51,511 nucleotides of DNA, from positions 1-51,511 of the forward strand of contig JACPBX010000011.1 of the NCBI GenBank assembly GCA_016180085.1, in the 5' to 3' direction. This stretch comes from Candidatus Woesearchaeota archaeon (GTDB lineage Archaea > Nanobdellota > Nanobdellia > Woesearchaeales > UBA10216). This document shows, piece by piece, positions 16,052 to 43,870 of this stretch. Made by a program: the position numbers and the translations under genes. Numbering within the stretch: the first letter of the stretch is position 1; each line of letters begins with the position of its first letter. The notes beneath the pieces are model-generated. The model had not been told where the DNA came from. It did not search any database and was given only the letters and a program-made list of their open reading frames with translations.

Positions 16052-16210
16052 ATGGCTTTGCCTATTGCTGTGACAGGGAAAAAAGGCACAATCATACTGT
16101 CAAAAGTGCTGATGGCGAGCGTGCTTGTCCTGGCTTCGGCAGTAATACTTTTTCTTGTAATAAGAACAGTCTTGTGCAGGACAGGAGCATGGTCTGGCGG
16201 TGTTTGCTGA
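16052..16210 (+). CDS. Small membrane protein (52 aa) with a class III-like signal, first gene of the surface operon
   Basis: A short protein of 52 residues: a basic start, TGKKGTIIL (KKG at 10-12), one hydrophobic helix (about 13-38) and a short tail with cysteines (VLCRTGAWSGGVC). The KKG before the helix matches the prepilin-peptidase-type motif shared by the following genes. ATG 16052 lies 25 nt from a clear TATA box. Its TGA stop is immediately followed by the ATG of the next gene, so coding status is well supported despite the small size. It could be a minor pilin-like or assembly subunit (inference). Confidence 0.65.
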   Translation: MALPIAVTGKKGTIILSKVLMASVLVLASAVILFLVIRTVLCRTGAWSGGVC

Positions 16211-17254
16211 ATGTCAAAACAGAAATTGACAGCGCAGGGGAAAAAAGGGCTCACCCAATCGCAGACTGTAGGGATGCTGGCTGTTTTGGGCCTTGGCATC
16301 CTGCTGCTGCAGTTTACCAAGCCGCTTGTATCAGTTGCTAACGCCCAGAGCATTATTGAGGACTGTAAGTTCAGTGTTGGCCTGTCAAGCTGGCAGCTGA
16401 ACTTCAACAACTGGGTTAAGGACATCAACGTCGTAGACAGCCCTTTCAGGCTTAATTGCAAGACAATATTTACAGAAATAACCAAAGAGAGCATAAACCG
16501 GGCAGACGACAAGATAAAGCTGAGTAACGACCCAACCGAAAGGGTTGATCAGCTAAAAGAGGCTATTATGAAAAACATGAGGGAATGCTGGTATATGTAT
16601 GGTGAAGGCAAGGTGAAAATTCAGCAGACAGGGCTTTTCGAGAACGGCGAAACATCGTGCCTTGTTTGCTCGGAGATAGTGCCAAATCAAGAGTTCATAG
16701 ACAAGTTTGGCAACAAGAATCCTCTTGATGCGATGTACACTTACGCTGTAAATTCAAGGATTCCTCCTAAGGACGAAAAAAGTTACATGAATTATTTGCT
16801 TGAAGGCGCTGATCCTAGGCCAACTGGCTATCCTGACAGATCTGTTGTGCTGGACAGGCAGTATTCTGTGGTTTTTGCTGTGCATTCCAAGGAAGACGTT
16901 GATTCTGTGGGCGAAAAGGTTACTAAGAAGGTTTTCGGGTGGGATAGCAAAGCTAATACAAGCGCAGGCATCGTTGACTGCTACGTTGGCGGTGAGGGTA
17001 AGCTTACTGGCGATGAAGCTGAGGAGATTGGCTGTGACAGCAGCGGCAATAATCCTGGCCTGATTTTCGGGAAGGTTGTTGATGGCGGCACGAATGTTGA
17101 GCTGGCAACCTGGAAAAACCTTGTTGTTGGGGTTGCGACCGGAGGGGTTGGCATTTTGATTGGCGGGGATACGTTCAGGCTTAAGACCTACCCGGAGACA
17201 GTTCGCCTTGTTCCCACTGAAAGCCTGGCCAAATACTGCAAACGGCTCTACTAG
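16211..17254 (+). CDS. Secreted/membrane-anchored protein with class III-like signal (paralogue of next gene)
   Basis: A 347-residue protein. The N-terminus has GKKGLTQSQTVGML (KKG at 11-13) followed by a hydrophobic helix to about residue 37. The large exported domain contains the signature MRECWYMYGEGKVKI followed by SCLVCSEI, which recurs in the next gene. Several other cysteines (DCKF, NCKTI, DCYVGG, GCDSSG) suggest disulfides. A second hydrophobic segment (about 298-318) lies near the C-terminus. No named family is recognised. The gene starts directly after the stop of the 52-residue gene, so it is translationally coupled. Confidence 0.7.
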   Translation: MSKQKLTAQGKKGLTQSQTVGMLAVLGLGILLLQFTKPLVSVANAQSIIEDCKFSVGLSSWQLNFNNWVKDINVVDSPFRLNCKTIFTEITKESINRADDKIKLSNDPTERVDQLKEAIMKNMRECWYMYGEGKVKIQQTGLFENGETSCLVCSEIVPNQEFIDKFGNKNPLDAMYTYAVNSRIPPKDEKSYMNYLLEGADPRPTGYPDRSVVLDRQYSVVFAVHSKEDVDSVGEKVTKKVFGWDSKANTSAGIVDCYVGGEGKLTGDEAEEIGCDSSGNNPGLIFGKVVDGGTNVELATWKNLVVGVATGGVGILIGGDTFRLKTYPETVRLVPTESLAKYCKRLY

Positions 17255-17265
17255 AACCTACGAGA

Positions 17266-18213
17266 ATGAAGCGCGCATTACATAAAAAAGGTCTTACGAA
17301 CGAAACTATTGTTCTTCTTATTCTTGTGCTGGTGGCTCTTATCTTTTCGGTGTTCCACTTCGGCAAAGGCGTTGGCGAGGCGAGCAACAAGTCTGTGGAG
17401 GTAACGGCATGCAGGGCAAGCGTTGACAGGAATGCCAGGCTGCACATAAACGGCATAGAGTTTCCAACAAGCCTGAACTGCCCGGCGCAGAAGGTGAGGA
17501 TAACAAAGGCTGGCACTGCCGAGGCGCAGGACTCTGCGAAGAAGCTGATAGCTGATGCGATGTACGACTGCTGGTACAAGTACGGCGAGGGAAAACTTAA
17601 CCTTTTCAAGGACGAGGCAACGTTCTGCTCGGTTTGCGCATTCGTCAATATTGAAACAGAGGAGCCTGTTAAGGGCTTGCCAGCTTATCTCATGACCGAG
17701 CAGTCGCCTGACAAAAGCGGGAAGCTTTACTCTGATTACCTTGCAAGCTACAAGACTTCAAAGGCAGAGCAGGTTCTTGGCGCGATAAAGGACACTCCTC
17801 TTCTTGACAGGGCTTCAGGGGCTGAGCTGAAAGGCAAAACCAACTACGCGGTGGTTTTTGTATATGCAAAAGGCAATGATGAGCTGGAAAAGCTGGCAAA
17901 CCACCTGACTGCCCAGACAACAGCAGGCAAGACAGGGCTTATCATAGGCGTTGGGGCTGGCTCGGTTGCCGGAACAACTGCCGCATTGACGCTGGTAAGC
18001 TTTGGAGTTGCCGCAGGCCCTGTCGGCTGGGCTGCTCTCGGAGTTGGTGTTTCAGTCCTGGCTGTTGTTGAGGTTGTTTCATTTTTTGCAAGCCCTGACA
18101 ATGTTCCTGAATGGGCTGCCCTTACCGCATTGAGGGAGTGGAACTCTGCAGAAACCGATAACATACTCAGGGATGACTTTGGCTGCACATATTTCCCGGC
18201 AAAGCTTGAATAG
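17266..18213 (+). CDS. Secreted/membrane-anchored protein with class III-like signal (paralogue of previous gene)
   Basis: A 315-residue protein. HKKGLTNETIVLLIL (KKG at 7-9, with glutamate in the position typical of type IV pilins) is followed by a hydrophobic helix. The exported part has YDCWYKYGEGKLNLFK and FCSVCAF, the same signature as the upstream gene. A glycine- and alanine-rich hydrophobic region (about 222-275) follows, and a cysteine lies near the end (DDFGCTYF). The signature CWY-x-YGEGK then CxxC defines a paired family of unknown role. It lies 11 nt after the previous gene in the same operon. Confidence 0.7.
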   Translation: MKRALHKKGLTNETIVLLILVLVALIFSVFHFGKGVGEASNKSVEVTACRASVDRNARLHINGIEFPTSLNCPAQKVRITKAGTAEAQDSAKKLIADAMYDCWYKYGEGKLNLFKDEATFCSVCAFVNIETEEPVKGLPAYLMTEQSPDKSGKLYSDYLASYKTSKAEQVLGAIKDTPLLDRASGAELKGKTNYAVVFVYAKGNDELEKLANHLTAQTTAGKTGLIIGVGAGSVAGTTAALTLVSFGVAAGPVGWAALGVGVSVLAVVEVVSFFASPDNVPEWAALTALREWNSAETDNILRDDFGCTYFPAKLE

Positions 18214-18240
18214 GAAGGGCTTGGGCGGCAGAGGCAGCGA

Positions 18241-18254
18241 ATAAATATAAATAG
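18241..18254 (+). promoter_or_regulatory. Internal promoter of the surface operon
   Basis: ATAAATATAAATAG is centred about 45 nt before ATG 18292. It predicts a short leader with an AAAGGTG ribosome-binding site at about 18280-18287. The giant protein can therefore be expressed separately from the first three genes. Confidence 0.45.
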
Positions 18255-18291
18255 CAGCCGTATAGGAAGATAAAAAGAAAAAGGTGTGCAT

Positions 18292-18456
18292 ATGAGTCTT
18301 ACTAGGTTTGGGAAGAAAGGGCAGGAAGCTTCGCCCTGGGGCCATCTTGGAGGCTGGATAATAGCCCTTGCCGTCCTCATCATTTTGGTGGTAGTCATGC
18401 TCTCGGCTTTCGGAATCATTAACCTTGACTTCATAAGGAATGCGAGGTTTGGATAA
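18292..18456 (+). CDS. Small membrane protein (54 aa) with class III-like signal
   Basis: A 54-residue protein: FGKKGQEASPWGHLGGW, then a long hydrophobic helix (about 21-42), then INLDFIRNARFG. KKG lies at residues 8-10. It has a good ribosome-binding site (AAAGGTG). Its TAA overlaps the ATG of the giant gene (TAATG), which indicates tight translational coupling. It could be a partner or pseudopilin-like subunit that inserts with the 2045-residue protein (inference). Confidence 0.65.
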   Translation: MSLTRFGKKGQEASPWGHLGGWIIALAVLIILVVVMLSAFGIINLDFIRNARFG

Positions 18457-21400
18457 TGCGCACAGGCTTTGGCTCTGGCAAAAGGGGTGCGGGCTGGGGT
18501 TGGCTGCTTGGCGCAGTGCTAATGGCACTTGTCATATTTACTGTTCCTGCTGTAAAAAACATAGCTTACGGTGCTCTTGAAAACACCCTCAAGATTGCCG
18601 GCATTGACATTGGGAATCCCAGGATAGGCGCTTTCTCTGCAAAGCCAGTGGACATAGGCGGTGATGGTAAAATTGAAATGAGGTTTGAATTGTCAGTAGC
18701 CGGCAACAAGGACAGCGCTTATTTGGAGATTTATGAGAGCAAGGCCAGTGATGACAAGACCGCAGCGCAGCTTGAGCCGCCTCCGGCAAAGTTTGGCGAT
18801 GATGACAGGATTTACAGTACCCGGCGAACAGAAGGCAGATTGTCCGAATTGGCTAAGAAAGGGGTTTTTAGTATAAACTGCCCCGGACATGATGAGTGCA
18901 AAGCTTTTGATTACGTGCCTAAGCCCAGGGATGAGTTCAAGCCCGGCCTGTACAGGTTCACTGCTGTTATCAGGAAAGCAAAGGACAACAAGGTTGTGTA
19001 CTCCAAGGATGTTGTTGCTGGGTTTTACGATGAGGAGTATGTTGAGCTTCTTGACAAGCCTGCCGTGGGCTGTCCTGACTGTAACGTTATTGAGTGCAAG
19101 AGAAAGCAGATGGAAACCTTGCTGGAGGAAAAAGACAAGTGCAGTGAAGGCGTTAAGATACTGTACAAGGAGTCTGGGGGAAGGGTTAACGTTGTTGACG
19201 TGAACGGATGCGCCTTCCCAATTGAGCCTGTAAAGCACACTGACCCGCTGACAAACGCAGAGTTCACAGGCTGCTTGGCTTCACAGATAAACCTCATCCA
19301 CTCCCAGACCGTGCTTTCAGCATTCTACAGGATAGCATGTGAGAAGGGAGACGGCATAGGAGCATTGACCGACCTCCCTCTGGCTGAGGACAAGCTTGCC
19401 AAAAAAGGCCTTGGCATAAGCCAGGTAAAGGAGATGGCAAAGGATTTCATGCAGTCCTGCTCAAAGAAGGCGGAAAGTTATCTCAACGGCAAGGGCTGGT
19501 TTAAGGCAGAGACGGCCCAGTCAAGAAGGGCTGCGTATGATGACAAAATAACAAGCTACCTTGATAACAAGGTCATGCCTGGCGTTACAGGCGTAAGCCT
19601 GAACAACGATCAAACCGGCCTTTTGGTCGTCAGCTGGAAAGCCCTGACTGGACAGGCCAAGGTTGGAAAGTTTGTGATAGAGCATGTTGTTACAAAGGCT
19701 ATTGACCCTGAAAGCAAAGAGGTGCAAACCTTTGGCGAGACCTTGGAGAAGCTGCCTAGCGAGCTGACGCCTGCCGTGGATGGCTTCTCTTTTACAATCA
19801 GGCCTGAAAACTCTAACCTTGCGGGCTGGCATGAGTTTATCGTGTCAGCCGTAAGCAAGGATGACCCCGGCTCGAGCTCTGTGAAGAGCTCAAGCGGAAG
19901 GGGCCTTTACAACCTGCGCTTTTTGGAGCTTTACCAGACCCACCCAAAAGGCTGCACTGACGACAAGTGCAACGTCATCAAGAAGAAGAAGGAGATGATC
20001 AAAAGCTCGCCAGGCGCTGACGAGGCTTACATGATTTGGAGTGGCAGGATAAAAAACGCAGGGTGTGTTTACGACGAGAAAAAAGGCATGGACGACTGCC
20101 CTGAGCCGGAAGCAGTTGACATAATGTACAGGGGAATAATCGGGCTCTCGCGTGTTGGTTCTGATTTTGAAAAGGCTGTTGGCATGGAATGTGGTGCCTC
20201 AAACACTCCTGAAGGCAGGGTGTGCTCTGCCAGGAAGGAATTAAAGGCAGAGCTTGAAAAGAGAGGCTGGTTCCAGGTTGTGGTCGAAACTCCGATTGTG
20301 ATAACTCCATCAAATGTCAAGGTTCAGGATTTCAAGGCTGTGGCCAGAGCCGATGGCGGTATTGACGCAGAGTTTGTTGTAAGCGGGAATGTGGCCAAGA
20401 TAAGCGGCTTTGCAGTTGAGCACAGGTTCAACAGGTTCTACCGCGATGACAGCAAGCAGTTTGTCAACCTTCTGCCTATGGAGGTTGCCAAAGACAAGAG
20501 GGAAGTGGTAATTGGACCGTTTGAGGAAAGGTTTGACGGCTATCACAAGTTCAGGCTTAAGGCGGTTGATGATTTGAGCATTGAGCTAAGCTCAAGTGCA
20601 GAAGTCGCTGCCGGTTTTTATACGCAGGGCTATCTTGACTTTTACGATGGCGATGCTGAGAACTGCAAGGGCGATGGCGGCTGCGATGTTGTTGGCAGGA
20701 AGCGGGATTACCTTAAGGAGAAGAGAGATGCTGCGATAGAAGTTTTCGCAAATGACGAGGCAGTTAGGAAAGGCTTGGAATTTTTTGGCTGTAGCATAAA
20801 TGGGCTGGACAGGTGCAGGCCGGAAGGCGTTCAGGCTTTGTTCGCTGCCGTTCTTGGAAAGTTTTACCCGAACACAGACCAGCAGAATGAGCTTTTGACA
20901 AAATGCGAAACAAAAGGGAACCCTTACGTGGATATCTGCAAAGCCAGGAAAAACCTTGAGTCAGCCTTGAAGAGCAACGGCTGGGTTGAAGTTACAAAGC
21001 CAAGAGCAGAAACAAAAGCTGCTTTGCCCACAACAACAGCAGACATCAAGACAGTGCCTGAAAGGCCATTGCCCGGGGAGCTTTTCACCCTGGTTGTGGA
21101 AGCTGCATCTTCCCATGCCATAAGATGGCTTAAGATAGCAGAAGGCAATTCAAAGGAGTGGAAGACTGTGCCTTGTGACTGGCTTAGCAAGACGTGCAAG
21201 CGCGAATGGTCAAGGCTTTACTTTGACCCAAACCCTGTCCCTATAAGAATAGCTGTGGTTGATGCGACCGAGCGTGTTTCTGAGCTTGAGCCTTTTACGC
21301 CAAGTGTTGCCTGGAGCTGCCTTGGCTCAAAAAAGGCTGGTGAAAAATGGGTTGGGTGCAAAACAAACGACCAGGAGGAAGTGCTTTACGAGTGCAACAG

Positions 21401-24400
21401 CGACGGTAGCTTTACAACGCATATTCCCGAGAAAGAGGAAGATAGAAAGCCGTCATCTTTCCTTTGCGGGGGAATAGTTGATTATGGCCAGGCAGAAACA
21501 GGAAGCCAGGGAAACTGCATCTACACATGTAAGTTTGATGCTGAGTGCAGCGCTGTTGGAGGCTCAATAGCTCCCTTTGAGTGCCCTGGCAAAAACACAG
21601 GCATGAGAGGTGTTGAGCTTAAGCAAGTGTGCTGCGAGGTTGGAGCACCGCAAGAGGTAAACCCGAAAACTGTTGGCGTCCTTTCAATCATTACAAACAT
21701 CATGAACGAGAACCTGATAGCGAACTCTGTTGGCGGTTTTTTCTTCGTTTTTGACCTCATCAACCCGGTTAAAATGTTCACGGAAAGCGAGAAAAGTAGG
21801 CAAAGGCAGGATTTGCTGGACATCATGTTAAAGCTTCAGGCTGATGCTGAGCAGGGCACTTCCCTCAGCAGCGTTGTTGGCGCAATGGGCACTTTGAAAA
21901 AGGACGAAAAAGAGAGGAAGAAGTATCTTGACCAGAAATACCAAAGCATCAGCAACCAGTTTTACAGCTACGCGGCAAAGCTGGAGATTGATGCAGGCAG
22001 CGACAACAAGGCCAAACGCGATAGGGCAAGGGCAACATTGGCAGAGCTGAACCCGGTTATTGCCAACTTTAACCTCTACACCCTTCCTCAGCGGGAGTTT
22101 GACGAGCTGGCTATTCGGCACAGCACTGATCCCCTTGTGCTTCAGATAGCAAGGTATGACGCCCTCACCTGGCTTGACGACGACAGGCAGTTTGAGGCTC
22201 TTGATGACATTTACTTCGAGGTTGGGAAAAGCCTGGAAAAAACAAAGGATGAAGGTATGGCTGTTGAGATGTATAACCTTGTGCTGGAAAACTTCCGCGA
22301 GTCTGAGCATGCGCAGGAGTCGAGGGACAGGATAGAACTCCTTCAATCATTTCGCCACAAGGCTGGAACCTTGACTCAGAGCCTCGCGATAGACATATTC
22401 GGAGACCCTACGTTTTACGTGTTTGGCGGTCCAAAAGCTTTGATAAAGGGCGGCCTTACCGCTGTGAGGGTTTTGTCAAAAACTCCGCAAATTGCAGCTC
22501 AGACAGCAAAGCAAGCCGGCAAGGTTTCAGAGCCCCTCCTGAGGGAAGCTCTTGCAAGCTCTGGCGTGAAGAGCAGGGAGATTCTGGAAAAAGCCCCGGG
22601 CATGCTTGTGAGGTCTGGAGGCAAGGTCAGCCAGGAGCTTGTGGAATTGCTTGCAAATGTTCCAAGAGTGATAAAGTCCAGGATGATAAAAACCGTTGTG
22701 GACCGGGAAGGCAGGGTATTTTTTGAAACTACGGCGCTTAAGGGCGGCCAGAAGATAAGGGTGCCTTACCTGGAGAGCTTCAAAACCGCCCTGGCTGTCA
22801 GCTCAGATAAGCTCGGCGAGTTCAAAAAAGCGTATAGGGATTTAATGATTGAGAAAGGCCATCTTTTTGGCAATCCCAACGACCAGAAGCTGGCAATAAG
22901 GCTCCTGCAGAGCGGCTTGGACAAGGATGAAGTAGTTAAGGTCCTTACAAAGGCTGACAAGATTGCTGATGACTATGATCTTCTGACAAAAGTGGTGAAC
23001 AACTTCATGGAGCCCGAGTTCGGCATTACGCAGCCAAGGCTGGTGAGAATGATTTTGGCTGCTAAAGCAACCCCGGCCTCGGTAGAGGATGCCCTGTCCA
23101 TAAAGAGGGCTGCAACCGAGGTCATACTTAAGAATCTGGGCAACAACAGGAACAGGTTCCTTGTCGCCAAAACCCCGGGAGGCCAGGACGTCAAAGTGGC
23201 CCTAAACCGCCAACTGATGAAAGGCGACTTAGCTGGGGAAGTTGAAAAGGCCGGAAGCAAGTACGCTGAAGTCATGAGCAAGTATCCAAATCTGTTGGAC
23301 AATGCCGATGACCAGAAGAGGGTTTTGGACCTTGTCCAGGCTCCTGATTTGGGTGCGGATGACATAGGGCATCTTATCACCCGTAGGGCGAACGCCGACT
23401 CTGCCATAAAGCAGGGCTTCCTTGACAGCTATGTGAAGAAGATTGCACCCACGCTTGACAGGATTAACGACGCTGACGAGATACTGAAAGCCCAGGACTT
23501 TACAGATGCCATAAGGAAGGCGAGAATAGACAGGGCCAAGGTGCTAAAGCAGGCAAACAAGCGCTTCAGGGGAATCGACATTGACATCAAAATGAATGAG
23601 CTGCTTCAGCAAAAGCTAGCCGAGGCTGCTCTTAGAAGCGGAAGGGCAGCGAAAATAGAAGGGGCCATAAGCGGGGACTCTGCTGACTTGTCAAAAACCT
23701 TTTACGGGGCATTCGGGCCAATGGCAGAAGGCAGGGGAGCCGTGGTTGTTCCTGAGCATGTCCCAACATTTTTCAACAGGCTTGTCGCCATTAAAAACAG
23801 TATTTCAGACTTCGCCATAAGTTCTGAGATTATGGCTGGAGTTGCTTCCGAGGAGGCCAAGCTGGTTGTAAAAACACTGCATGCCCATGCCATTGAATAC
23901 GGGGCGCCTGTCGTGAAGCTTGCCAGGGAAAAGGGCTTAAGGCCCCTCAATGCCATTGTTTCGTTTGATATTTCAAAAGCCAGCATGCTCAGCCCTGCCA
24001 AGTTTGCCGAGCTTGACGAAGTTGCAGGAGTTGTTGTGCCTGTGATTGCGCAGGCCCCTGACGGCACAGACGAGCTTGCCTTTGTGGTCTTTGAAAATGG
24101 CGCCATACCTGCAGAAGTCCTGCCACAGACCGACCTGTTATTTCTCCCTGACGGCTCTGCGCCGTACTGCGCATATTACGATGTGGTTGTTGAATGCACT
24201 CTTGACGATGAAGTTTCGAGAAGCGCCATGCCGACCGCTGTTTTCGGCAATAATCTGGAGAAGCAGGTGCTGATAAGCCTGAACATGCGCAACCTTGAGG
24301 GTTTTGAAACTACGAAAGATGACTGGCTTAAGGACAACATTGCTCCTTTGGCTGCAAACGTTGAGGTTAATGATGAAGCGCTTAGTGATGCTGAGGCGGA

Positions 24401-24593
24401 CGCTGCGCTCACAGAAAAGGCTGATGAGCTGCTCGGCAAGGCAGGCACTGCTTACGACACTTCAAAGCAGCTCAGGGCTAATGGCTTGAGCGATGTGGAG
24501 GTTCAGCAGTTCCTTGTTTCGGCAAAAGACTTATCAGCTTTCAATGACTTGAAAGATGTTCCTGTTGAAAGCCTGAGGGTGAGGTTAGGATGA
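18456..24593 (+). CDS. Giant modular surface protein (2045 aa) with three repeated Cys/FN3-like modules
   Basis: The N-terminus SGKRGAGWGW (KRG at 9-11) plus a hydrophobic helix (12-33) fits a class III-like signal or anchor. Residues about 60-845 contain three units. Each has a beta-sandwich, fibronectin-III-like part (for example 373-470 and 620-715) followed by a helical cysteine module. The modules open with GFYxxxYxxLxD-like segments and CNVI/CDVV-[RK]-KxxxxE cores, and close with a KxLxxxLxxxGW signature (about 347, 604 and 842). A further Cys-rich domain (about 955-1063) ends in VCCEV. The C-terminal half is mainly helical, with a TPR-like stretch (about 1240-1300). It overlaps both neighbours by a few bases. 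No named family is recognised. It is probably an extracellular stalk or adhesin (inference). Confidence 0.7.
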   Translation: MRTGFGSGKRGAGWGWLLGAVLMALVIFTVPAVKNIAYGALENTLKIAGIDIGNPRIGAFSAKPVDIGGDGKIEMRFELSVAGNKDSAYLEIYESKASDDKTAAQLEPPPAKFGDDDRIYSTRRTEGRLSELAKKGVFSINCPGHDECKAFDYVPKPRDEFKPGLYRFTAVIRKAKDNKVVYSKDVVAGFYDEEYVELLDKPAVGCPDCNVIECKRKQMETLLEEKDKCSEGVKILYKESGGRVNVVDVNGCAFPIEPVKHTDPLTNAEFTGCLASQINLIHSQTVLSAFYRIACEKGDGIGALTDLPLAEDKLAKKGLGISQVKEMAKDFMQSCSKKAESYLNGKGWFKAETAQSRRAAYDDKITSYLDNKVMPGVTGVSLNNDQTGLLVVSWKALTGQAKVGKFVIEHVVTKAIDPESKEVQTFGETLEKLPSELTPAVDGFSFTIRPENSNLAGWHEFIVSAVSKDDPGSSSVKSSSGRGLYNLRFLELYQTHPKGCTDDKCNVIKKKKEMIKSSPGADEAYMIWSGRIKNAGCVYDEKKGMDDCPEPEAVDIMYRGIIGLSRVGSDFEKAVGMECGASNTPEGRVCSARKELKAELEKRGWFQVVVETPIVITPSNVKVQDFKAVARADGGIDAEFVVSGNVAKISGFAVEHRFNRFYRDDSKQFVNLLPMEVAKDKREVVIGPFEERFDGYHKFRLKAVDDLSIELSSSAEVAAGFYTQGYLDFYDGDAENCKGDGGCDVVGRKRDYLKEKRDAAIEVFANDEAVRKGLEFFGCSINGLDRCRPEGVQALFAAVLGKFYPNTDQQNELLTKCETKGNPYVDICKARKNLESALKSNGWVEVTKPRAETKAALPTTTADIKTVPERPLPGELFTLVVEAASSHAIRWLKIAEGNSKEWKTVPCDWLSKTCKREWSRLYFDPNPVPIRIAVVDATERVSELEPFTPSVAWSCLGSKKAGEKWVGCKTNDQEEVLYECNSDGSFTTHIPEKEEDRKPSSFLCGGIVDYGQAETGSQGNCIYTCKFDAECSAVGGSIAPFECPGKNTGMRGVELKQVCCEVGAPQEVNPKTVGVLSIITNIMNENLIANSVGGFFFVFDLINPVKMFTESEKSRQRQDLLDIMLKLQADAEQGTSLSSVVGAMGTLKKDEKERKKYLDQKYQSISNQFYSYAAKLEIDAGSDNKAKRDRARATLAELNPVIANFNLYTLPQREFDELAIRHSTDPLVLQIARYDALTWLDDDRQFEALDDIYFEVGKSLEKTKDEGMAVEMYNLVLENFRESEHAQESRDRIELLQSFRHKAGTLTQSLAIDIFGDPTFYVFGGPKALIKGGLTAVRVLSKTPQIAAQTAKQAGKVSEPLLREALASSGVKSREILEKAPGMLVRSGGKVSQELVELLANVPRVIKSRMIKTVVDREGRVFFETTALKGGQKIRVPYLESFKTALAVSSDKLGEFKKAYRDLMIEKGHLFGNPNDQKLAIRLLQSGLDKDEVVKVLTKADKIADDYDLLTKVVNNFMEPEFGITQPRLVRMILAAKATPASVEDALSIKRAATEVILKNLGNNRNRFLVAKTPGGQDVKVALNRQLMKGDLAGEVEKAGSKYAEVMSKYPNLLDNADDQKRVLDLVQAPDLGADDIGHLITRRANADSAIKQGFLDSYVKKIAPTLDRINDADEILKAQDFTDAIRKARIDRAKVLKQANKRFRGIDIDIKMNELLQQKLAEAALRSGRAAKIEGAISGDSADLSKTFYGAFGPMAEGRGAVVVPEHVPTFFNRLVAIKNSISDFAISSEIMAGVASEEAKLVVKTLHAHAIEYGAPVVKLAREKGLRPLNAIVSFDISKASMLSPAKFAELDEVAGVVVPVIAQAPDGTDELAFVVFENGAIPAEVLPQTDLLFLPDGSAPYCAYYDVVVECTLDDEVSRSAMPTAVFGNNLEKQVLISLNMRNLEGFETTKDDWLKDNIAPLAANVEVNDEALSDAEADAALTEKADELLGKAGTAYDTSKQLRANGLSDVEVQQFLVSAKDLSAFNDLKDVPVESLRVRLG

Positions 24594-25345
24594 TATACGA
24601 CAGCGGTATTGAAGGCAGTTCTGCCGGTTCGCCTGGCAATCGAAGCGCAAAAGCTTTTCTGGCTGCTGCCGGCATAGTAATAGGGGTTGCTGTTGTCGTG
24701 GCTGCACTTTTCATAATATTTCAGCCTGAAGAAAAAACAATAAAGCTACCGGCTGTTGAAGAAGCCCAGCTGGTTTTTACCTCGCCAACTGACGCCGAGC
24801 AGCAAGCTATTGTAAGAAGCCTTGTTGGCTATGACTGGGCTGTGCTCCTGAACACTCCCCTTGATGACAAAAGGGCCGTGCTTGCAGTGCCTTACCTTGC
24901 AAGTTTGGAACTGGAAACTGCCATTGCGCAGCACAATCTTCTCGACAACTCAGCCAGGTATGTTGGAGCTGGGGCAGTCCAGCTTGTGAAGAATGACTCC
25001 GGCCTTAGGGGCATTTTGGAAAGCCTTGCAGCCATAGAGGATGAGTACTACCGCCTTGGGCTGCCTTCAGGGGTTGTGCATGCCGAAAGGCTCAGGCACC
25101 TTGCCAAAATGCTTGAAGTGTACGGCCCGCCTGCTGGAGAAATAAGGGATTCTGAAACCAGGCAGTTTGCCCAGGACCATCTCGGATTTTCTGTTGACTC
25201 GTACGAGGCGTGGTATACACTTATAAGTATAAGATACGGCAGTTTAATTAAAAACATTGAAAAAACAAAAGACAAAAAGTCTATACTTACTGTTAAGGAA
25301 TATCTGGGAGGAAATCCCCAGAGAAAGGAAGTTTTGACAAGGTGA
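24590..25345 (+). CDS. Membrane-anchored protein of the surface operon
   Basis: A 251-residue protein with a short cytoplasmic start (PGNRSAKAFLAAAG), one membrane helix (about 21-44), and an exported helical domain with ESLAAIEDEYYRLGLPSG and YGSLIKNIEKTKDKK. It is the only member of the operon without a clear [KR][KR]G motif; NRSAK takes its place. The start overlaps the stop of the giant gene by 4 nt (ATGA), so the two are translationally coupled and may work together. No family is recognised. The exported part lacks the cysteines of its neighbours. Confidence 0.6.
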   Translation: MIYDSGIEGSSAGSPGNRSAKAFLAAAGIVIGVAVVVAALFIIFQPEEKTIKLPAVEEAQLVFTSPTDAEQQAIVRSLVGYDWAVLLNTPLDDKRAVLAVPYLASLELETAIAQHNLLDNSARYVGAGAVQLVKNDSGLRGILESLAAIEDEYYRLGLPSGVVHAERLRHLAKMLEVYGPPAGEIRDSETRQFAQDHLGFSVDSYEAWYTLISIRYGSLIKNIEKTKDKKSILTVKEYLGGNPQRKEVLTR

Positions 25346-25351
25346 TAAAGC

Positions 25352-25654
25352 ATGGCCGGAAGCGAAAGGAGTGGAAGAAGAAGAGGTTCAAAGAGTGCAG
25401 CAGCTTTGTCGCTGGAAACAATCGCGGTTGCGGCAATAATACTTGTTGTCCTGATAATTGTCCTAGCAATCTTCACAGGAGGGTTTAACAAAGTCAGGTT
25501 TCAGATAGGGAAGGTCAATAATTGTGAGCCTGAAAATGAATGCGTTGAACCAGATGGAACATGCAATGCCGGTGAAAAGATATACGGCCTCGGCTGTGAG
25601 GAAAAATATCCGGGGACAAAAACCTACTGCTGCAAGAAGCAGCCGGATGTCTAG
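25352..25654 (+). CDS. Small pilin-like protein with a cysteine-rich exported domain
   Basis: A 100-residue protein. GRRRGSKSAAALSLETIAVA (RRG at 10-12, glutamate just inside the helix) precedes a hydrophobic helix to about residue 41. This is the best type-IV-pilin-like N-terminus in the operon. The exported part is a compact cysteine domain: NCEPENEC, GTCNAG, LGCEEKYPG, TYCCKK. Its six cysteines and CC ending recall the Cys-rich segment of the giant protein that ends in VCCEV. It lies 6 nt after the preceding gene and overlaps the possible upstream start of the next. Confidence 0.65.
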   Translation: MAGSERSGRRRGSKSAAALSLETIAVAAIILVVLIIVLAIFTGGFNKVRFQIGKVNNCEPENECVEPDGTCNAGEKIYGLGCEEKYPGTKTYCCKKQPDV

Positions 25655-25670
25655 TGGAAGGATTGGCGGA

Positions 25671-26291
25671 ATGGGAAGAATGCGGAAAAATAAGAGAGGT
25701 GCGGCACCCACTAGCCTGCTTATGGCCATAGGCTATGCTTTGGGTTTTATCCTGTTTGTTCTAATTCTGCAGATTGCAGGTGGTAAAGTGGGGCTGACTA
25801 TAGGAGGCACGGCTGAGGCAGCTACTGCCATTGACAGGGGCTTTGCCGACCTTACTAAGAAGGCGGAGGAGCTTGAGGACAGTAAGCCGCCGGTTGACTT
25901 TGCCCTGACCGTTGACAAGGACTTTTTCCTGGTAAGCTTCAACAAAGCTCCCGACGTAAAAAACGGCAATGCCGTAAGCCCGCCTGAATGTAACGGTGTA
26001 TCATGCCTTTGCGTTTGCATTGATGACAAGTGCGAGGACATTGACGTCCAAAAGAACAGGGGCAGGGACTGCAGGCCGATATACCAGTATAATGCAATAA
26101 TAGCTGAAGGGGATGACAGCTTTAAATGCAATGATGGCAGCGAGTGCAACAGGGGAGGTAAGCATACAAGCTATAAGTACGTTGATGAGTCAGGCAGTGT
26201 GTCGGATGGCTACTACTTTTACATTAAGGGCGAGAAAACGTTTTCTGCAAAGATTCGGAAAAGCAGCAGCAACCTTTACATAGGGCAGTAA
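25671..26291 (+). CDS. Class III-like signal membrane protein with Cys-rich exported domain
   Basis: A 206-residue protein. KNKRGAAPTS (KRG at 8-10) is followed by a hydrophobic helix (about 14-32). The exported part has many cysteines (PPECNGVSCLCVCIDDKCED, then DCRPIYQ, KCNDGSECN) and a C-terminal beta-rich stretch (DGYYFYIKGEKTFSAKI). The frame is open far upstream inside the previous gene. ATG 25671 is chosen because GGAAGG lies upstream and it keeps a short basic leader. ATG 25647 or 25680 are alternatives. No named family is recognised. Confidence 0.6.
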   Translation: MGRMRKNKRGAAPTSLLMAIGYALGFILFVLILQIAGGKVGLTIGGTAEAATAIDRGFADLTKKAEELEDSKPPVDFALTVDKDFFLVSFNKAPDVKNGNAVSPPECNGVSCLCVCIDDKCEDIDVQKNRGRDCRPIYQYNAIIAEGDDSFKCNDGSECNRGGKHTSYKYVDESGSVSDGYYFYIKGEKTFSAKIRKSSSNLYIGQ

Positions 26292-26316
26292 ACCCTGCCA
26301 TACTTTACCGCAACTA

Positions 26317-26324
26317 ATTTAAAT
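26317..26324 (+). promoter_or_regulatory. Second internal promoter of the surface operon
   Basis: ATTTAAAT is centred 28 nt before ATG 26349. This suggests that the last four genes can also be transcribed on their own, as a leaderless mRNA. Confidence 0.5.
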
Positions 26325-26348
26325 GCCTGTGCAGATTATCCGTTGTTG

Positions 26349-26825
26349 ATGCGGAAGCTTGTGCTGGGAAAAAGAGGGGCTGAAGCGACAACAGTCGAGG
26401 TGTGGTTTGTCGTTATCGGGCTGATACTTGCCGCGCTGGTAACCACCGGCCTTTTGAAAAAGACAGTTGACGACATCAAAGGAAAAACCCTGGAGAAGAA
26501 CTACATTGCCAGGGACATTGCCCTTGCGCTGGACGCTGTTTACGCCGCCCCCGGCGATGTGGAGTACACCTATTCCCTCAAGAAATATAAATTTGTCGTT
26601 GAGATAAAAGACTCCAAGGTTTTTGTCAAGGACTCTCTGGGAGAGAAAGACGCTACCGCCGGCATTTACGATTATTTCGGGGACCCTGACAGTAAGCTGA
26701 GCGTGAGGATAACGCCTCTGCCCGACGACCCTAGGCCAATGCTGGTTACGTTAGGCAACAGGAATGATGTTTTGCTTGTAAAAGCCGAGAATGCGTTTTT
26801 GGAAGAAGATGTGGCATTTACCTGA
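26349..26825 (+). CDS. Class III-like signal membrane protein of the surface operon
   Basis: A 158-residue protein. LGKRGAEATTVEVWFVVIG (KRG at 8-10, with glutamates at the helix start) precedes a hydrophobic helix to about residue 36. The exported domain is beta-rich (YSLKKYKFVVEIKDSKVFV). A TTG two codons upstream (26343) is possible, but ATG 26349 fits the TATA position. The pilin-like N-terminus and compact exported domain resemble minor pilins. The following gene starts inside its 3' end. Confidence 0.6.
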   Translation: MRKLVLGKRGAEATTVEVWFVVIGLILAALVTTGLLKKTVDDIKGKTLEKNYIARDIALALDAVYAAPGDVEYTYSLKKYKFVVEIKDSKVFVKDSLGEKDATAGIYDYFGDPDSKLSVRITPLPDDPRPMLVTLGNRNDVLLVKAENAFLEEDVAFT

Positions 26826-27387
26826 CAGTCTGGTTTATTTGGCTCTGCTGGCAAGGAGCAAGAGAGGCCTCGCCATATCAGACAAGATGCTGCTGTGGAT
26901 TCCAAGGTTTATTTTTACAGTGATAGTTGTCGGGCTGACTTTTTACATCATACTTTCGTTTATAATCACTAAAACAAACGTTTCCGAGGCAGAGTCAAAC
27001 ATACTTACGGACGTTGCTTACTATTCCGGTGATGGCTTCTCTTTTGTTGATAAGGATACGAACAGGGTTTATGCCGGTGTTATAGACGGGTCAAAGTTCA
27101 GCGACGCCCAGCTTGGAGCGCTGCTTAGCAATGACAAGCCGTTGCTTGTTGGCAGGTTTGTAAGGCGGCAGACTATTATTGATTACCTTTTGCATCCCCA
27201 AACAGATGCGGTAGCTTACACCGATAAAGCAAGGTATGGGCAGTGGCAGCCCATAGCGCAGCTGAAAGGGGAAGGCGAGGGAGGCAAGACGCCTTATTCA
27301 GAGGTCAGGTATGTTGCCGTGCGCAATCCGGCAACAGGCAATTCAAAAGGAGCGGTGGTCGAAACCGTTTTCATAGCTTCGAACTGA
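26809..27387 (+). CDS. Class III-like signal membrane protein of the surface operon
   Basis: A 192-residue protein. A first short hydrophobic stretch precedes ARSKRGLAISDKMLLW (KRG at 18-20) and then a long hydrophobic helix (about 28-55). The exported domain contains LTDVAYYSGDGFSFVD and GRFVRRQTIIDYLL. An earlier ATG (26791) exists. ATG 26809 has GGAAGAAG just upstream and overlaps the previous gene by 17 nt. No family is recognised. The position suggests a structural partner of the neighbouring pilin-like proteins. Confidence 0.55.
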   Translation: MWHLPDSLVYLALLARSKRGLAISDKMLLWIPRFIFTVIVVGLTFYIILSFIITKTNVSEAESNILTDVAYYSGDGFSFVDKDTNRVYAGVIDGSKFSDAQLGALLSNDKPLLVGRFVRRQTIIDYLLHPQTDAVAYTDKARYGQWQPIAQLKGEGEGGKTPYSEVRYVAVRNPATGNSKGAVVETVFIASN

Positions 27388-27397
27388 GGATGGAAAG

Positions 27398-28192
27398 ATG
27401 GTAATGTTCAGGGCAATGCTAAAAAGCAGGAAAGGGCTGGACTTTTGGGACATTTTCTTTTACCTGTTCTATTTTCTGGTAGCTTTCATAATAATATTTC
27501 TGCTTAACATTGCAGGATGCGTGATTAAGGATAAGGAAGCCAGGGCTGGAATCGGCGCTGACGTCAGCCTCGCGGCAGTCATAAGGGCTGACGCGCAGCT
27601 TGACAGCTATTTGAGGACACAGATGCCTGGCAAAGAAGAGCTGCTTGAAAAGATGGGCTGGGTGGAGAAGAATAAAAACGCGAAATACATCAAGGGCCTT
27701 GTCAAAGAGATTGACTTCAACTTTGGAAAGGTCGAGGATTTTCTCAACAAGCATCCTGAGGTTTACTCTGACAGGGACTACTCAGGCTTCATAAGCGGCC
27801 TGCACCCCTTTTACGTCTCCGGAAGCAAAAAGGACAAGGAAGATTCTGAAAGGGTTTTCAAGGCCGTAACTGCGGTTATGTTCATCAGGGCTGTGATTGA
27901 TTACCCGAAAAAGGGCGATTACATGTTCTATCTTTTGCCTTTGGGCGTTGATTTTGGCCCTTCTGACCTGAAACCGAGCAGTAAGGAAGACATGTGCAAA
28001 TCATCCTACGAATTGTGCGCGCAATACCTCCCTCCGGAAGTTGTTCCCAGCCTGAAAGACCCTTTAATCTATGTCTCGCCAGTAAGGTTTTCAAGCCAGG
28101 CCATCCAGATTATTCCTCTGGCAGACGCAACACTGGCAAAGGTTGAGTTCAGGTATTATCCGGAGTTTAAATCGAGGCTGCCGCAGCCGTGA
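27398..28192 (+). CDS. Class III-like signal membrane protein of the surface operon
   Basis: A 264-residue protein. KSRKGLDFWDIFFYLFY (RKG at 11-13) leads into a strongly hydrophobic helix (about 18-40) ending at a cysteine (NIAGCVIKD). The exported domain is mixed helical and beta, with LRTQMPGKEELLEKMGW, then YMFYLLPLGVDFGPSDL and two cysteines (MCKSSYELC). A GAGGATGGAAAG purine run precedes the ATG. It lies 10 nt after the previous gene. No named family. Confidence 0.6.
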   Translation: MVMFRAMLKSRKGLDFWDIFFYLFYFLVAFIIIFLLNIAGCVIKDKEARAGIGADVSLAAVIRADAQLDSYLRTQMPGKEELLEKMGWVEKNKNAKYIKGLVKEIDFNFGKVEDFLNKHPEVYSDRDYSGFISGLHPFYVSGSKKDKEDSERVFKAVTAVMFIRAVIDYPKKGDYMFYLLPLGVDFGPSDLKPSSKEDMCKSSYELCAQYLPPEVVPSLKDPLIYVSPVRFSSQAIQIIPLADATLAKVEFRYYPEFKSRLPQP

Positions 28193-28201
28193 GGTAAGGT
28201 T

Positions 28202-29368
28202 ATGACCACGCCAACAAAGCCGATGAAGCTGTTATCAGGAAACAAGCGGGGGATGGATTATTACGTTTTTATAGTCTCGCTTGTTGGCGTGCTTATGCTC
28301 AGCTTCATAACATTCAGCCTTTTCACCAAGCAATACAGCCTTAGCTCAGGGCTTTCTACCGGCACAGAGCAGTTCAGGGTGCTGAAAACATACGCCGCAG
28401 CCGAAAAAGCCCTGCTCTTCGCTGACGATGCTGCAAGGCTGGCTTTGGAGCAGGCTGCTTACAAGTACGGGAAAAGCGGGTTTTACTATTCGGGTGCCCC
28501 ATGCGGCAGCAATGGCGGCTACAACTATTGGGCAAAGGATGAAATTCTCCAGAAGAATGACTGCGTGCCTCAGCCAGCGAATCCTTCCGGGTGCTATCCT
28601 GACGAGCCCATGATGAAGTGGACTCTTTCAACTTTTTTCTACTACGATTTCTACAAATTCGTTTCAAAATTCAATAGCATCAGCGAGGTTAAGATTCCTT
28701 TTAATTACGAACCGTTCGGCGTAGCGACAGGCAGCACACAGATTATTGGCATATCGAAAGACCCAATAACAATAAGCATTCCTAACGTTAAGTACGAAGT
28801 CAAGCCGGGCTTCAGGGAAAGCATAAACCGGGATCTAATTGGCGATGGCAGTTCTGTTGTTGCGGTTGCCAAGCAGCTTGCCGGTAAAAGCGAGAAGGAG
28901 GCAAAGAAAATAGTTTCTTCAGCTGATAGCAGTGATGCAGGCAGCCTTGATTGGAATGAAAAGTTTGCCTACAGCAAGGCAAAAAATTCCTGCCTTTACG
29001 CCATTGGCTCATGCACATGCTGCGAAACCATTGAAACGTGCGAGGAGTATGAGTTTGACGAAGAAGGCAACCCTGTCCTGGATGATGATGGAAAAATTAT
29101 TTGCAAGAAAAAAGGCACTTCAGAGGTTCCTGTAGGTGATGGCACAGAATACAGGACAATACCTTACGACAGCTTTGACATCCCGATGAGCGTCAGGGTC
29201 AACGACCCTGCTTCAGGCACAAGCCATAAGCAGTATTTAGTTTATGATGAGGCAGCAAAAAAGGAGGTGCTGAAAGAGCTCGAGTACAACTTCGCAGTAA
29301 ACTGGATAGAGGACCACCCCGAAGACTCAACAACCTCCTGCTCCTGCGGCACAGGACATCCATGCTGA
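28202..29368 (+). CDS. Class III-like signal membrane protein with C-terminal Cys clusters, last gene of the surface operon
   Basis: A 388-residue protein. SGNKRGMDYYVFIVSLVGV (KRG at 15-17) leads into a hydrophobic helix. The exported domain includes APCGSNGGYNYW, DCVPQPANPSGCYPDEP, a cluster SCTCCETIETCEEYEFDEEG and a terminal CSCGTGHPC. The two C-terminal clusters could bind metal or form disulfides. A helical segment (QLAGKSEKEAKKIVSSADSS) lies in the middle. It starts 9 nt after the previous gene, and no further gene follows before the RPA promoter. No family is recognised. Confidence 0.6.
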   Translation: MTTPTKPMKLLSGNKRGMDYYVFIVSLVGVLMLSFITFSLFTKQYSLSSGLSTGTEQFRVLKTYAAAEKALLFADDAARLALEQAAYKYGKSGFYYSGAPCGSNGGYNYWAKDEILQKNDCVPQPANPSGCYPDEPMMKWTLSTFFYYDFYKFVSKFNSISEVKIPFNYEPFGVATGSTQIIGISKDPITISIPNVKYEVKPGFRESINRDLIGDGSSVVAVAKQLAGKSEKEAKKIVSSADSSDAGSLDWNEKFAYSKAKNSCLYAIGSCTCCETIETCEEYEFDEEGNPVLDDDGKIICKKKGTSEVPVGDGTEYRTIPYDSFDIPMSVRVNDPASGTSHKQYLVYDEAAKKEVLKELEYNFAVNWIEDHPEDSTTSCSCGTGHPC

Positions 29369-29474: not shown

Positions 29475-30554
29475 ATGATTCGCTTGTCCTACGATGAGAT
29501 TATTGCCAAGATTAAGGAGAAAAGCAGCCTGAGCGAGAGCGAGCTTTCCGGGAAAATCAGCGGCAAGATGTCTCAGCTCGCAGGTCTCGTAAGTAAGGAA
29601 GGGGCTGCTCATATTGTTGCTTCGGAGCTTGGGATAAAGCTCGTTGACCAGCTTTCCGGCAGGTTACAGATAAAAAATATCCTGAATGGAATGAGGGATG
29701 TTGAGACTGTTGGCAAGGTTATGCAGGTTTTTGACGAGCGCCAGTTCAGCAGCAACGGGAGGGAGGGGAAAGTGGCAAGTTTGCAGCTGGCTGACGAAAC
29801 CAGCTCTATAAGGGCTGTCCTGTGGAATGAGCAGGCTGCTAACGTGAAAGGCATCAACGTTGGCGATGTCGTTAAGGTCAAGAGCGCTTATGTCCGCGAA
29901 CGCAACGGATTAAAGGAGCTTCACCTTAACGACAGGAGCGTGGTAATAGTGAACCCTCCGGGCGAAACGGTGGATGTTGCTGTTCCTGCAGCGGCTGCAA
30001 CTGTAACTTCACAGCGCCAGCAGAAAGCCATTAGGAAAAAGCTGTCTGAGCTGAACGAAAGCGACGCGATGGCCGAGGTCCTTGGCACGATTGTCCAGGC
30101 GTTTGACATAAAGTTCTTCGAGGTCTGCCCTGAATGCGGCAAGAGGGCGAGGCAGTCGCAGCCTGACAGCAGCTTTGTCTGCAATGACCACGGCGCAACA
30201 GCAAAGCCTTCATACTCATACGTGCTGAACACTGTGATTGATGATGGCACTGAAACAATGAGGCTTGTCCTCTTCAGGAGGATGGTTGAAAGGCTGCTGA
30301 ACAAGACGGAACAGGAAGTGCTGGCTTACCGCTCGCAGCCTGACTCTTTCCAGCAGGTTAAGAACGACATCTTGGGGAACTTTGTGAAGGCTGTGGTGAG
30401 GGTTAACAAGAACGAGCTTTTTGACAGGCTTGAGTTAGTTGCCCAGGAGATTCATGAGGCAAACCCTGATGATGAGATAACAAGGCTTAATGGCGAGCTT
30501 GCCGCTTTGCAGAAGCCCCAGCCTGCCCGGACTGAAGAAATGAACATGCAATGA
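29475..30554 (+). CDS. Replication protein A (single-stranded DNA-binding protein) with zinc finger
   Basis: An archaeal RPA of 359 residues that coats single-stranded DNA in replication, repair and recombination. It has an N-terminal helical region (1-65), an OB fold (about 72-158; VETVGKVMQVFDERQF, then RAVLWNEQA), and a linker. A second OB fold (about 198-330) contains a zinc site CPEC...CNDH (C218, C221, C236, H239). The C-terminal tail is acidic to neutral. Co-location with RadA 1 kb downstream fits a recombination group. ATG 29475 lies about 34 nt from the TATA box, so a short leader is likely. Confidence 0.92.
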   Translation: MIRLSYDEIIAKIKEKSSLSESELSGKISGKMSQLAGLVSKEGAAHIVASELGIKLVDQLSGRLQIKNILNGMRDVETVGKVMQVFDERQFSSNGREGKVASLQLADETSSIRAVLWNEQAANVKGINVGDVVKVKSAYVRERNGLKELHLNDRSVVIVNPPGETVDVAVPAAAATVTSQRQQKAIRKKLSELNESDAMAEVLGTIVQAFDIKFFEVCPECGKRARQSQPDSSFVCNDHGATAKPSYSYVLNTVIDDGTETMRLVLFRRMVERLLNKTEQEVLAYRSQPDSFQQVKNDILGNFVKAVVRVNKNELFDRLELVAQEIHEANPDDEITRLNGELAALQKPQPARTEEMNMQ

Positions 30555-30560
30555 TGCTCA

Positions 30561-31028
30561 ATGATGTTTCTGACTCACCTCGCCGGTGGAATATTTGCGG
30601 CAGTTTATTTCGGCAACTTTTTGGGGATTAGCTACAGCAGCAATGAAAAGATTATCACAATTGTAGTGGCTGCTGTTTTTGCCCTGCTTCCGGACATCGA
30701 TATGGTAAAATCGAAATTGGGAAGGAAGCTGCAGCCGTTTTCTAACGTTCTTGCAGTGTTGTTCAGGCACCGCGGCTTCCTTCACAGCTTTATTTTTGCA
30801 GCACTTGTTTATTTTGCAATGCTGTATCTTTTTTCAACAGTTATTGCTGCAGCAGCAGTTTTAGGGTATTCCTCGCACTTGCTGCTTGACATGGCTACAA
30901 AGGAGGGTATAATGCCGCTTTCGCCGCTGTCAAAGATGAAAATAAGGGGCTTTGTAAGGACGGGCGGGATTCTGGAGAAGGCAGCCACTGCCGCGCTATT
31001 TGTTCTTATAATTCTCAAACTGGTTTGA
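30561..31028 (+). CDS. YdjM-like membrane-bound metal-dependent hydrolase
   Basis: A 155-residue membrane protein of the YdjM/DUF457 type. Conserved polar motifs sit between hydrophobic helices: FLTHLAGG, LLPDIDMVKS, FRHRGFLHS and SSHLLLDMATKEG. Histidines and aspartates are placed to bind metal at the membrane face. The family's role is poorly defined; bacterial members belong to the LexA regulon. It starts 6 nt after RPA and is likely co-transcribed, which gives it a DNA-repair neighbourhood here. Confidence 0.85.
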   Translation: MMFLTHLAGGIFAAVYFGNFLGISYSSNEKIITIVVAAVFALLPDIDMVKSKLGRKLQPFSNVLAVLFRHRGFLHSFIFAALVYFAMLYLFSTVIAAAAVLGYSSHLLLDMATKEGIMPLSPLSKMKIRGFVRTGGILEKAATAALFVLIILKLV

Positions 31029-31085
31029 AAAGTTTCCGGAAAACAGCATATGATCCACTGGACACTGGACAACTGCCCGGCTAGG

Positions 31086-31095
31086 GTATATAAAG
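31086..31095 (+). promoter_or_regulatory. TATA box of the small ssDNA-binding-like gene
   Basis: GTATATAAAG predicts a start near 31117 and a leader of about 40 nt. The leader carries a GGATAAGGTGA ribosome-binding region before ATG 31159. An ATG at 31154 opens only a two-codon frame (ATGAGATGA). Confidence 0.5.
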
Positions 31096-31158
31096 GGGAA
31101 CTTTTCTAATAGTGTACGCGCTTACGGGAGGCGACAAGAAAGGATAAGGTGAAATGAG

Positions 31159-31506
31159 ATGAATGAATTGGAAAGTGTGTATGGAAGGGATTATGGAAGC
31201 AAGGGCGTAGCAGCTGCTGGTGCTACCAGTGCGGTGGAAACTGGAGCAGAAACAAGGGCAAATGCTGCAATCCAGAACTTGCCTGACAAGAAGTTCAAGG
31301 CCGGAGGCATAACGGCAACTGTCTGGAAGGGAATTTCCCCGAAAGGCACGGCTTACTTTAATGTTCAGCTTGGCAGGAGCTACAAGGACAACAACTGGAA
31401 GAATACCAGCTCGCTGAGGGAGAATGACGTGCCAAAGGCGATGGTTCTGCTGCAGAAGGCGTATGAGTACGTTATACTGCAAACTACAAACGCTGTGCTT
31501 AATTAG
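31159..31506 (+). CDS. Small conserved protein, possible ssDNA-binding (PC4-like) protein
   Basis: A 115-residue protein: a disordered A/G/T-rich N-terminus (1-45), then a compact domain [51 protein letters not shown]. The strand pattern (basic strand, aromatic strand with RSYKD, final helix) recalls PC4/YdbC-type single-stranded nucleic-acid-binding folds. That assignment is from pattern and context only (RPA upstream, RadA downstream). Without it, the protein is a conserved hypothetical. The ribosome-binding site GGTGA is 8 nt upstream. Confidence 0.6.
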
Positions 31507-31538
31507 GCAACAGCGGCTTATGCTATTATGCAACCGAT

Positions 31539-32609
31539 ATGCAAAAAAATTTAAACAATGAGGTGATTGCGGTGAGGAGGAAACAGGAGCAGGAATCGGT
31601 TTTGGTTGGGGAAGAGAGCATAGTTGAGGGGGAAGATGCTGTGAAGTCTGCTGAGAAGCCTGTAGATGGCACTGAGAGGGGCTCTGAGCTTGAGCAGCTG
31701 CCTGGTGTTGGCGCAGCCACGGCTGAGAAGCTTGCCTTGGGTGGTTATGATACCTTGCTTGGCGTAGCGGTAGCTACCCCTGGCGAGCTTGTTGAGCTGA
31801 CTGGCGTTACCGAGCTTGCTGCCAGGAAGATGATTCAATTCGCTCGAGACAAATTAGAGATGGGATTTGTGTCTGCTGAGGATGTTTTGGTGAAAAGGCA
31901 GGGGATTGGCAAGATAAATTCAGGCAGTACTGCTCTTGACAACCTGCTTGGTGGGGGTTTTGAGACAGGAGCAATTACGGAAGCATATGGCGCGTATGGC
32001 GCCGGAAAAAGCCAGCTTGCCCATAGCCTTGCTGTTAACTGCCTAAGACAATTCCCGGATTCCTATGTTGTCTTCATCGACACAGAATCTACCTTCAGGC
32101 CCGAAAGGATAATTGACATTGCGAAAGCGCAGGGCCTTGAGCCTGAAAAAGTTCTTAAGCAGATTAAAGTGGCCCGTGCCTTTAATTCAGACCACCAGAT
32201 GCTGCTGGCTGAGAAGATTGATGACCTAATAAAGAAGCAGGGGCTTAATGTCAAGCTGGTTGTTGTTGATTCGCTCACGGCACATTTCAGGGCAGAGTTC
32301 ATCGGCCGGGGAACGCTGGCTGACAGGCAGCAAAAGATTAACAAGCACATGCACACGCTGATGCGGCTGGCTGAGCTTAACAACCTGTGCGTTTACGTTA
32401 CTAACCAGGTCATGGCGAAGCCTGACATGTTCTTTGGCGATCCCACTGAGGCAATTGGGGGGCACATCGTCGCACACGCCTCCACATACCGCCTGTATCT
32501 AAGGAGGGGCAAGAAGGGAACCAGGGTTGCGAAGATGATTGACAGCCCAAGCCTGCCGGAAGGAGAGGCAACCTTCGTGCTTGATACAGCCGGTGTCAGG
32601 GACGTGTGA
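31539..32609 (+). CDS. radA: RadA recombinase
   Basis: The archaeal RecA/Rad51 homolog that forms filaments on ssDNA for homologous pairing. The acidic N-terminal extension (1-48) is followed by a helix-hairpin-helix domain ([15 protein letters not shown]). Next come Walker [10 protein letters not shown] (151-159), Walker B region [11 protein letters not shown], and the C-terminal [20 protein letters not shown] with the ATP-cap and L2 loops. Its 356 residues are slightly longer than usual because of the N-terminus. The exact start is uncertain: ATG 31539 is used, and in-frame GTG codons at 31563 and 31572 exist. Confidence 0.96.
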
Positions 32610-41018: not shown

Positions 41019-41021
41019 AAA

Positions 41022-42905: not shown

Positions 42906-42963
42906 TTATTGATAATGGTGAGCTAAATAAAGGCAAAAAATGAAAATCAGGAGGTAAGGAAAA

Positions 42964-43842: not shown

Positions 43843-43870
43843 AAGCGGCAGTGGAGTGGAGGGGAAGCTC

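Follow-up and report, generated by a model that had tools for sequence, protein, structure and literature searches.

What do twelve genes make together when nearly all of them begin with a short basic stretch in front of a hydrophobic helix? Twelve such consecutive plus-strand open reading frames (ORFs) lie head to tail, overlapping or abutting, at positions 16052-29368 of a 51,511-nucleotide contig of a Candidatus Woesearchaeota archaeon (JACPBX010000011.1; the whole contig is the window). The window is contig C42 of the 45 contigs of a 998.6-kb metagenome-assembled genome (MAG) that is 83% complete. The genes are denoted p0 to p10 in their order along the strand, with one giant gene between p3 and p4. 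Our answer, held with considerable confidence, is a set of subunits dedicated to a type IV filament (archaeal pilus-like) system that belongs to the Nanobdellota (Woesearchaeota and allied orders). The analysis found a conserved leader pattern, a peptidase, an ATPase with its platform protein, and the physical linkage of these last two to the operon in relatives.

Leader motif and conservation of the operon

The preliminary description had read this region as a twelve-gene operon with overlapping or abutting genes, eleven of which carry a [KR][KR]G motif before an N-terminal helix. The ORF reading bears out both statements: KKG, KRG, RKG or RRG stands at residues ∼8-20, ahead of the first hydrophobic stretch, in every gene except p4 (24590-25345). 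The further remark that the helix often starts with an acidic residue holds for only about half of the genes.

The frequency of the motif was compared with the rest of the genome by scoring the first hydrophobic segment, using the same gene caller and the same hydropathy rule for both. The scan covered ∼975 of the 998.6 kb (∼29 kb of it N) and 820 genes from a codon-usage caller. [KR][KR]G precedes the helix in 8/9 called operon genes with an N-terminal helix and in 19/187 elsewhere (Fisher P = 3.9e-7). The motif is thus ∼9-fold enriched in the operon and not equally frequent in unrelated membrane proteins; several of the 19 non-operon genes adjoin two other type IV pilus machines of this genome, on contigs C29 and C35. 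Other genomes contributed 27 further loci, seven of them named and twenty of them stretches around p7 no longer than 20 kb; among their 245 operon helices 190 are preceded by [KR][KR][GAS], compared with 31/187 in the own-genome background (P = 2e-38, which overstates independence since the sequences are related). The residue that follows the last K or R before the helix is G in 54%, A in 25% and S in 5% of the 245, whereas the corresponding values in the rest of the window's genome are 11%, 9% and 9%; G, A or S together account for 84% of the operon subunits in these distant loci versus 29% of the background. Among orthologues the three residues interchange at this site. The specificity of archaeal PibD for such sites is established. 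Restriction to G, A and S combined with swapping among them looks like the site requirement of a prepilin peptidase, is not predicted by a mere positive-inside signal, and suggests that PibD specificity applies here as well.

The arrangement is conserved. A relative of the giant protein occurs in 8/59 genomes, the window's own included, and around the giant gene of the seven relatives synteny is largely kept for the block p1-p2-small-big-p4-p5-p6-p7-p8-p9-p10, most genes having their own KKG, KRG, KKA or KKS. The 27 further loci show the same gene order with more subunits, so that operon synteny, which the preliminary description proposed to check across DPANN genomes, holds across this phylum. 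Profiles of p7 and (more widely) of p8 match 136/279 and 210/279 genomes of the phylum, respectively, and the named records with a p7 gene are all Candidatus Woesearchaeota.

p5 (25352-25654, plus strand) is a Cys-rich subunit of 100 amino acids (aa) whose family has a median length of 93 aa and one to four paralogues per locus. Mean pairwise identity in this family is 0.44 in the helix versus 0.23 in the Cys-rich head, a bias that is not seen in p2, p6, p7, p8 or p10. Because of its size, copy number and helix conservation, p5 is likely to be the major pilin and is the best candidate for it. Its RRG probably lies too far upstream, and the family alignment sets the site at KSA/AALSLET (the slash marks the predicted cut, here and below), matching KKA or KKG of the homologues. 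A structural model of p8 (26809-27387; predicted local distance difference test, pLDDT, 90) has the layout of a pilin, with a long N-terminal helix followed by a β-sheet head.

Peptidase, ATPase and platform

A type IV filament requires enzymes that the window does not supply, and the preliminary description expected the secretion ATPase and platform elsewhere. Three ATPase/platform sets were indeed found outside the window, on contigs C7, C29 and C35. The genome also has a PibD-like peptidase, the only one found, at C17:103-987 (Pfam Peptidase_A24, PF01478, 48.8 bits), and the lineage as a whole is well provided with prepilin peptidases, which occur in 268/279 genomes of the phylum. The ATPase on C7 (C7:4812-7115; Pfam T2SSE, 51.7 bits) has a long N-terminal extension and matches the FlaI model NF058587 with E = 2.5e-32 and 112.3 bits, below the 550-bit equivalog cut-off. 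It has a match in 276/279 genomes, mostly over the full length and at > 50% identity.

The C7 machine is tied to the operon by gene order in relatives. Ten genomes that belong to a different order within the class (G071, G079, G087, G090, G102, G115, G152, G166, G194 and G207; G087 read only as far as p2) encode a ∼ 720-aa membrane protein, the presumed platform, upstream of the operon and on its strand, separated from it by 0-5 genes. A T2SSE ATPase of 750-805 aa precedes it in nine of these stretches and was not seen beside it in G152. By coordinates, the ATPase and p8 genes of G282, G204, G208, G142 and G234 share a contig and a strand and lie no more than 10 kb apart. The linked pairs are orthologous to C7:4812-7115 (E = 0, ∼ 1000 bits) and to C7:2531-4759 (E ∼ 1e-190, ∼ 630 bits); MAG incompleteness masks linkage in many genomes. 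Pilin-like genes lie near the C29 and C35 machines and none near C7. Because C7-type orthologues adjoin the operon in another order, its cognate machine is most likely the one on C7.

The platform candidate C7:2531-4759 has no Pfam hit, T2SSF included, and a profile search of the PDB gave no match. Its AlphaFold model (22 sequences, pLDDT 76) consists of two repeats of long and short helices, part of which Foldseek aligns with the cytoplasmic domains of OutF (5nbg, probability 1.00, target template-modelling (TM) score 0.71) and EpsF (2vmb, 0.99, 0.69). An hhalign comparison with the TadC proteins of the same genome gave E = 2.7e-5. Judged from the model, the protein looks like a fused double TadC-type (T2SSF) platform. 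Unannotated companions are kept with the ATPase and platform in relatives and are found here at C7:7172-10403: a ∼ 149-aa coiled-coil protein, a ∼ 200-284-aa soluble protein and three ∼ 190-aa multi-helix membrane proteins.

We propose that the single PibD-type peptidase on C17 would cut the short basic leaders after [KR][KR][GAS], and that the FlaI/TadA-like ATPase (C7:4812-7115) would polymerize the mature helices on the double T2SSF platform (C7:2531-4759). Small p5, often present in several copies and with its conserved helix, would be the likely filament core, and p1, p2, p6-p10 and the giant protein the likely outward-facing minor, tip or decoration subunits. The preliminary description's proposal of co-assembled pilin-like subunits, some with large exported domains, gains support from the leader pattern, the peptidase and the machine linkage. 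Cleavage and polymerization are inferences, and so is the role, for which attachment to other cells, or contact with them, is the likeliest candidate. A life on host cells is commonly assumed for DPANN archaea, and the means by which they attach are mostly unknown. For presumed episymbionts attachment to other cells is a reasonable role, host contact being a putative one, and the reading with the best support is that the operon encodes a filament or surface complex.

Alternative readings and known systems

Several observations weigh against a type IV filament. The plain FlaFind-core regular expression matches only 5/9 of the operon's own helices and 108/245 of those in relatives, and p4 is without the motif. 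None of the subunits tested hits a Pfam or NCBIfam pilin model, and Foldseek finds no significant match of the p8 model to a solved pilin (best E = 0.05, all with low TM scores). Within the order to which the window belongs, ATPase and operon are unlinked. For the platform, the Foldseek E-values exceed 0.8 with each match covering one domain only, and the hhalign probability against TadC is only 74%.

Some of these points would suit ordinary membrane-anchored surface proteins, in which KRG is a positive-inside signal only and neither cleavage nor assembly takes place: a basic stretch ahead of the first helix is an ordinary topology signal, half of the subunits miss the FlaFind core, and there is no fold match to pilins. 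Such anchoring predicts neither the excess of G, A and S after the last K or R nor their swapping among orthologues, and in ten or more relatives the operon is physically linked to an assembly platform and ATPase; we consider this reading very improbable. It is hardly more probable, and in our view decidedly unlikely, that the C29 or C35 machine, or several machines, assemble these subunits instead of the C7 ATPase. Both machines are in the same genome, and one set of pilins can serve more than one archaeal ATPase/TadC pair (PMC4858521); however, C29 and C35 are each accompanied by their own pilin-like genes while the C7-type pair is the one linked to the operon in another order, and we set them aside as cognate machines.

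The neighbourhood of the operon raises the question of DNA uptake, in which the filament would bind DNA and the downstream RPA and nearby RadA would handle the imported strand. In 18/27 loci no more than two genes separate RPA from the last subunit, RadA/Rad51 is encoded in the window (31539-32609), and DNA import via pili has been proposed for Undinarchaeota (PMC7414124). Yet both are housekeeping genes and may merely be old neighbours, and ComEC (PF03772) is found in 0/100 genomes of the phylum, the window's included, although the archaeal controls lack it as well. Competence is kept only as a rival because ComEC is absent from the 100 genomes, and we regard it as unlikely. A short pseudopilus-like secretion or contact complex that exposes the giant protein and builds no long pilus is somewhat less unlikely. 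The many distinct, large, single-copy heads set against few small core candidates would fit it, as would giant subunits of up to 2045 aa and the 1338-aa p10-like protein of locus L147, but p5 resembles a major pilin in size, copy number and helix conservation, and no secreted substrate was identified.

The system shares with archaeal type IV pili (Makarova et al., 2016; PMC4858521) class III-type leaders, a prepilin peptidase, a VirB11/FlaI-like ATPase and a TadC-like platform, as well as many minor pilins and large adhesin-like proteins in the locus. It differs in that ∼ 10 or more pilin-like genes form one conserved operon, the heads match none of the Pfam or NCBIfam models tested, the ∼ 720-aa platform is apparently a fused double with no hit to Pfam T2SSF, and the ATPase has a long N-terminal extension, with an RPA gene as a conserved neighbour. 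A complex locus is also found for the Clade 1 type IV pili of Methanococci and Thermococci (Epd pili, EppA), which have five or more minor pilins together with two large proteins (PMC4858521); those, however, use an EppA-type peptidase and DUF2341 adhesins, whereas here a PF01478 PibD-like enzyme is present and there is no DUF2341 hit. With the archaellum the system has in common a FlaI-like ATPase (NF058587) and archaellin-type leaders, but the C7 ATPase scores below the FlaI equivalog level (112 bits versus 550). The Tad-like pili of Undinarchaeota and Nanohaloarchaeota (PMC7414124, PMC9563170) likewise belong to DPANN with TadA, TadB, TadC and a peptidase, and a contact or DNA-import role has been proposed for them; for both lineages PMC9563170 reports a lack of annotated pilins, whereas here subunits are identified and linked.

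Earlier surveys reported pilus motors for nanoarchaea, Nanohaloarchaeota and Undinarchaeota but were unable to name the cognate pilins (PMC4858521, PMC9563170), and we found no description of this operon in the open-access literature. The kind of system is known; no earlier description seems to exist of the subunit set, of its many-subunit make-up or of its broad occurrence across the phylum. Tentatively, and at somewhat less than even chances, we suggest an ancestral, nearly universal surface nanomachine of the Nanobdellota, a heteropolymeric filament of ∼ 10 or more different pilin-like proteins; these would be the cognate pilins hitherto missing for the DPANN type IV pilus ATPase and would serve host attachment or exchange. 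With this operon a syntenic set of subunits is at hand, recognizable by marker motifs (RVYPGxID in p8, ARDIALxLD...APGD in p7, LSLNxIxIAA in p5), and since this set is linked to an ATPase found in nearly every genome of the phylum, hypotheses on host attachment become directly testable.

Individual subunits and neighbouring genes

Gene starts, taken from a simple codon-based caller, may err by a few codons; all genes below are on the plus strand. The putative pilin-like subunit p0 (16052-16210, 52 aa) has TGKKG/TIILS ahead of its helix, and a 36-aa analogue stands directly before p1 in G018. p1 (16211-17254, 347 aa; QGKKG/LTQS) is pilin-like and has orthologues in G004, G006, G018, G005 and G003. 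The pilin-like p2 (17266-18213, 315 aa; HKKG/LTNE) resembles p1, as cross-matches show, and its family is present in most distant loci; K8, G9 and six Cys are invariant in its alignment. p3 (18292-18456, 54 aa; FGKKG/QEASPWGHLGGW), too short for the 60-aa ORF list, has counterparts in G006, G017 and G018, and its stop codon overlaps the start of the giant gene (TAATG). The giant subunit (18456-24593, 2045 aa; SGKRG/AGWG) has a large predicted extracytoplasmic region, orthologues of 1874-2090 aa in G004, G006 and G017, and 0 matches in Pfam, NCBIfam and PDB sequences; searches with the larger subunits against Pfam and NCBIfam gave no real hits either.

p4, a 251-aa single-helix protein, is a conserved accessory gene. 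Many related loci (L157, L158, L130, L134, L135, L147) have up to four extra pilin-like genes before p5 (GQIFIYI.., QFNWIFV.., METIAVLFIFF.., EIIGLAIVV..) that are not in the window's operon. Beyond p5 follow the pilin-like subunits p6 (25671-26291, ∼ 206 aa; KNKRG/AAPT), p7 (26349-26825, 158 aa; LGKRG/AEAT, head signature ARDIALxLDAxYAAPGD), p8 (192 aa; RSKRG/LAIS, head signature RVYPGxIDxxKF), p9 (27398-28192, 264 aa; KSRKG/LDFW) and p10 (28202-29368, 388 aa; GNKRG/MDYY), the last with conserved head cysteines and, in L147, the relative of 1338 aa mentioned above. The invariant head cysteines of p2 and p10 are consistent with an extracytoplasmic position. A/T-rich boxes are present near 18238-18250 and 26312-26325 and are putative promoters only.

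Downstream, 29475-32609 encodes RPA, a YdjM-like membrane protein and RadA. The RPA-like OB-fold protein (29475-30554, plus strand; Pfam tRNA_anti-codon/Rep_fac-A_C) is a neighbour whose adjacency is kept across the phylum, which does not imply membership of the machine.

Two features of contig C29 were noted in passing. Its pilus ATPase appears to be interrupted by an intein: the ORF that follows the T2SSE fragment (42093-43961) carries Intein_splicing and LAGLIDADG_3 and then PilB3_C. In the assembly 40915-42063 and 42093-43961 form two distinct ORFs, and a frameshift or split gene is possible. Upstream of this pilus cluster, beside a 19-kb masked stretch, C29:24400-36048 encodes a secreted-type repeat protein of 3882 aa.

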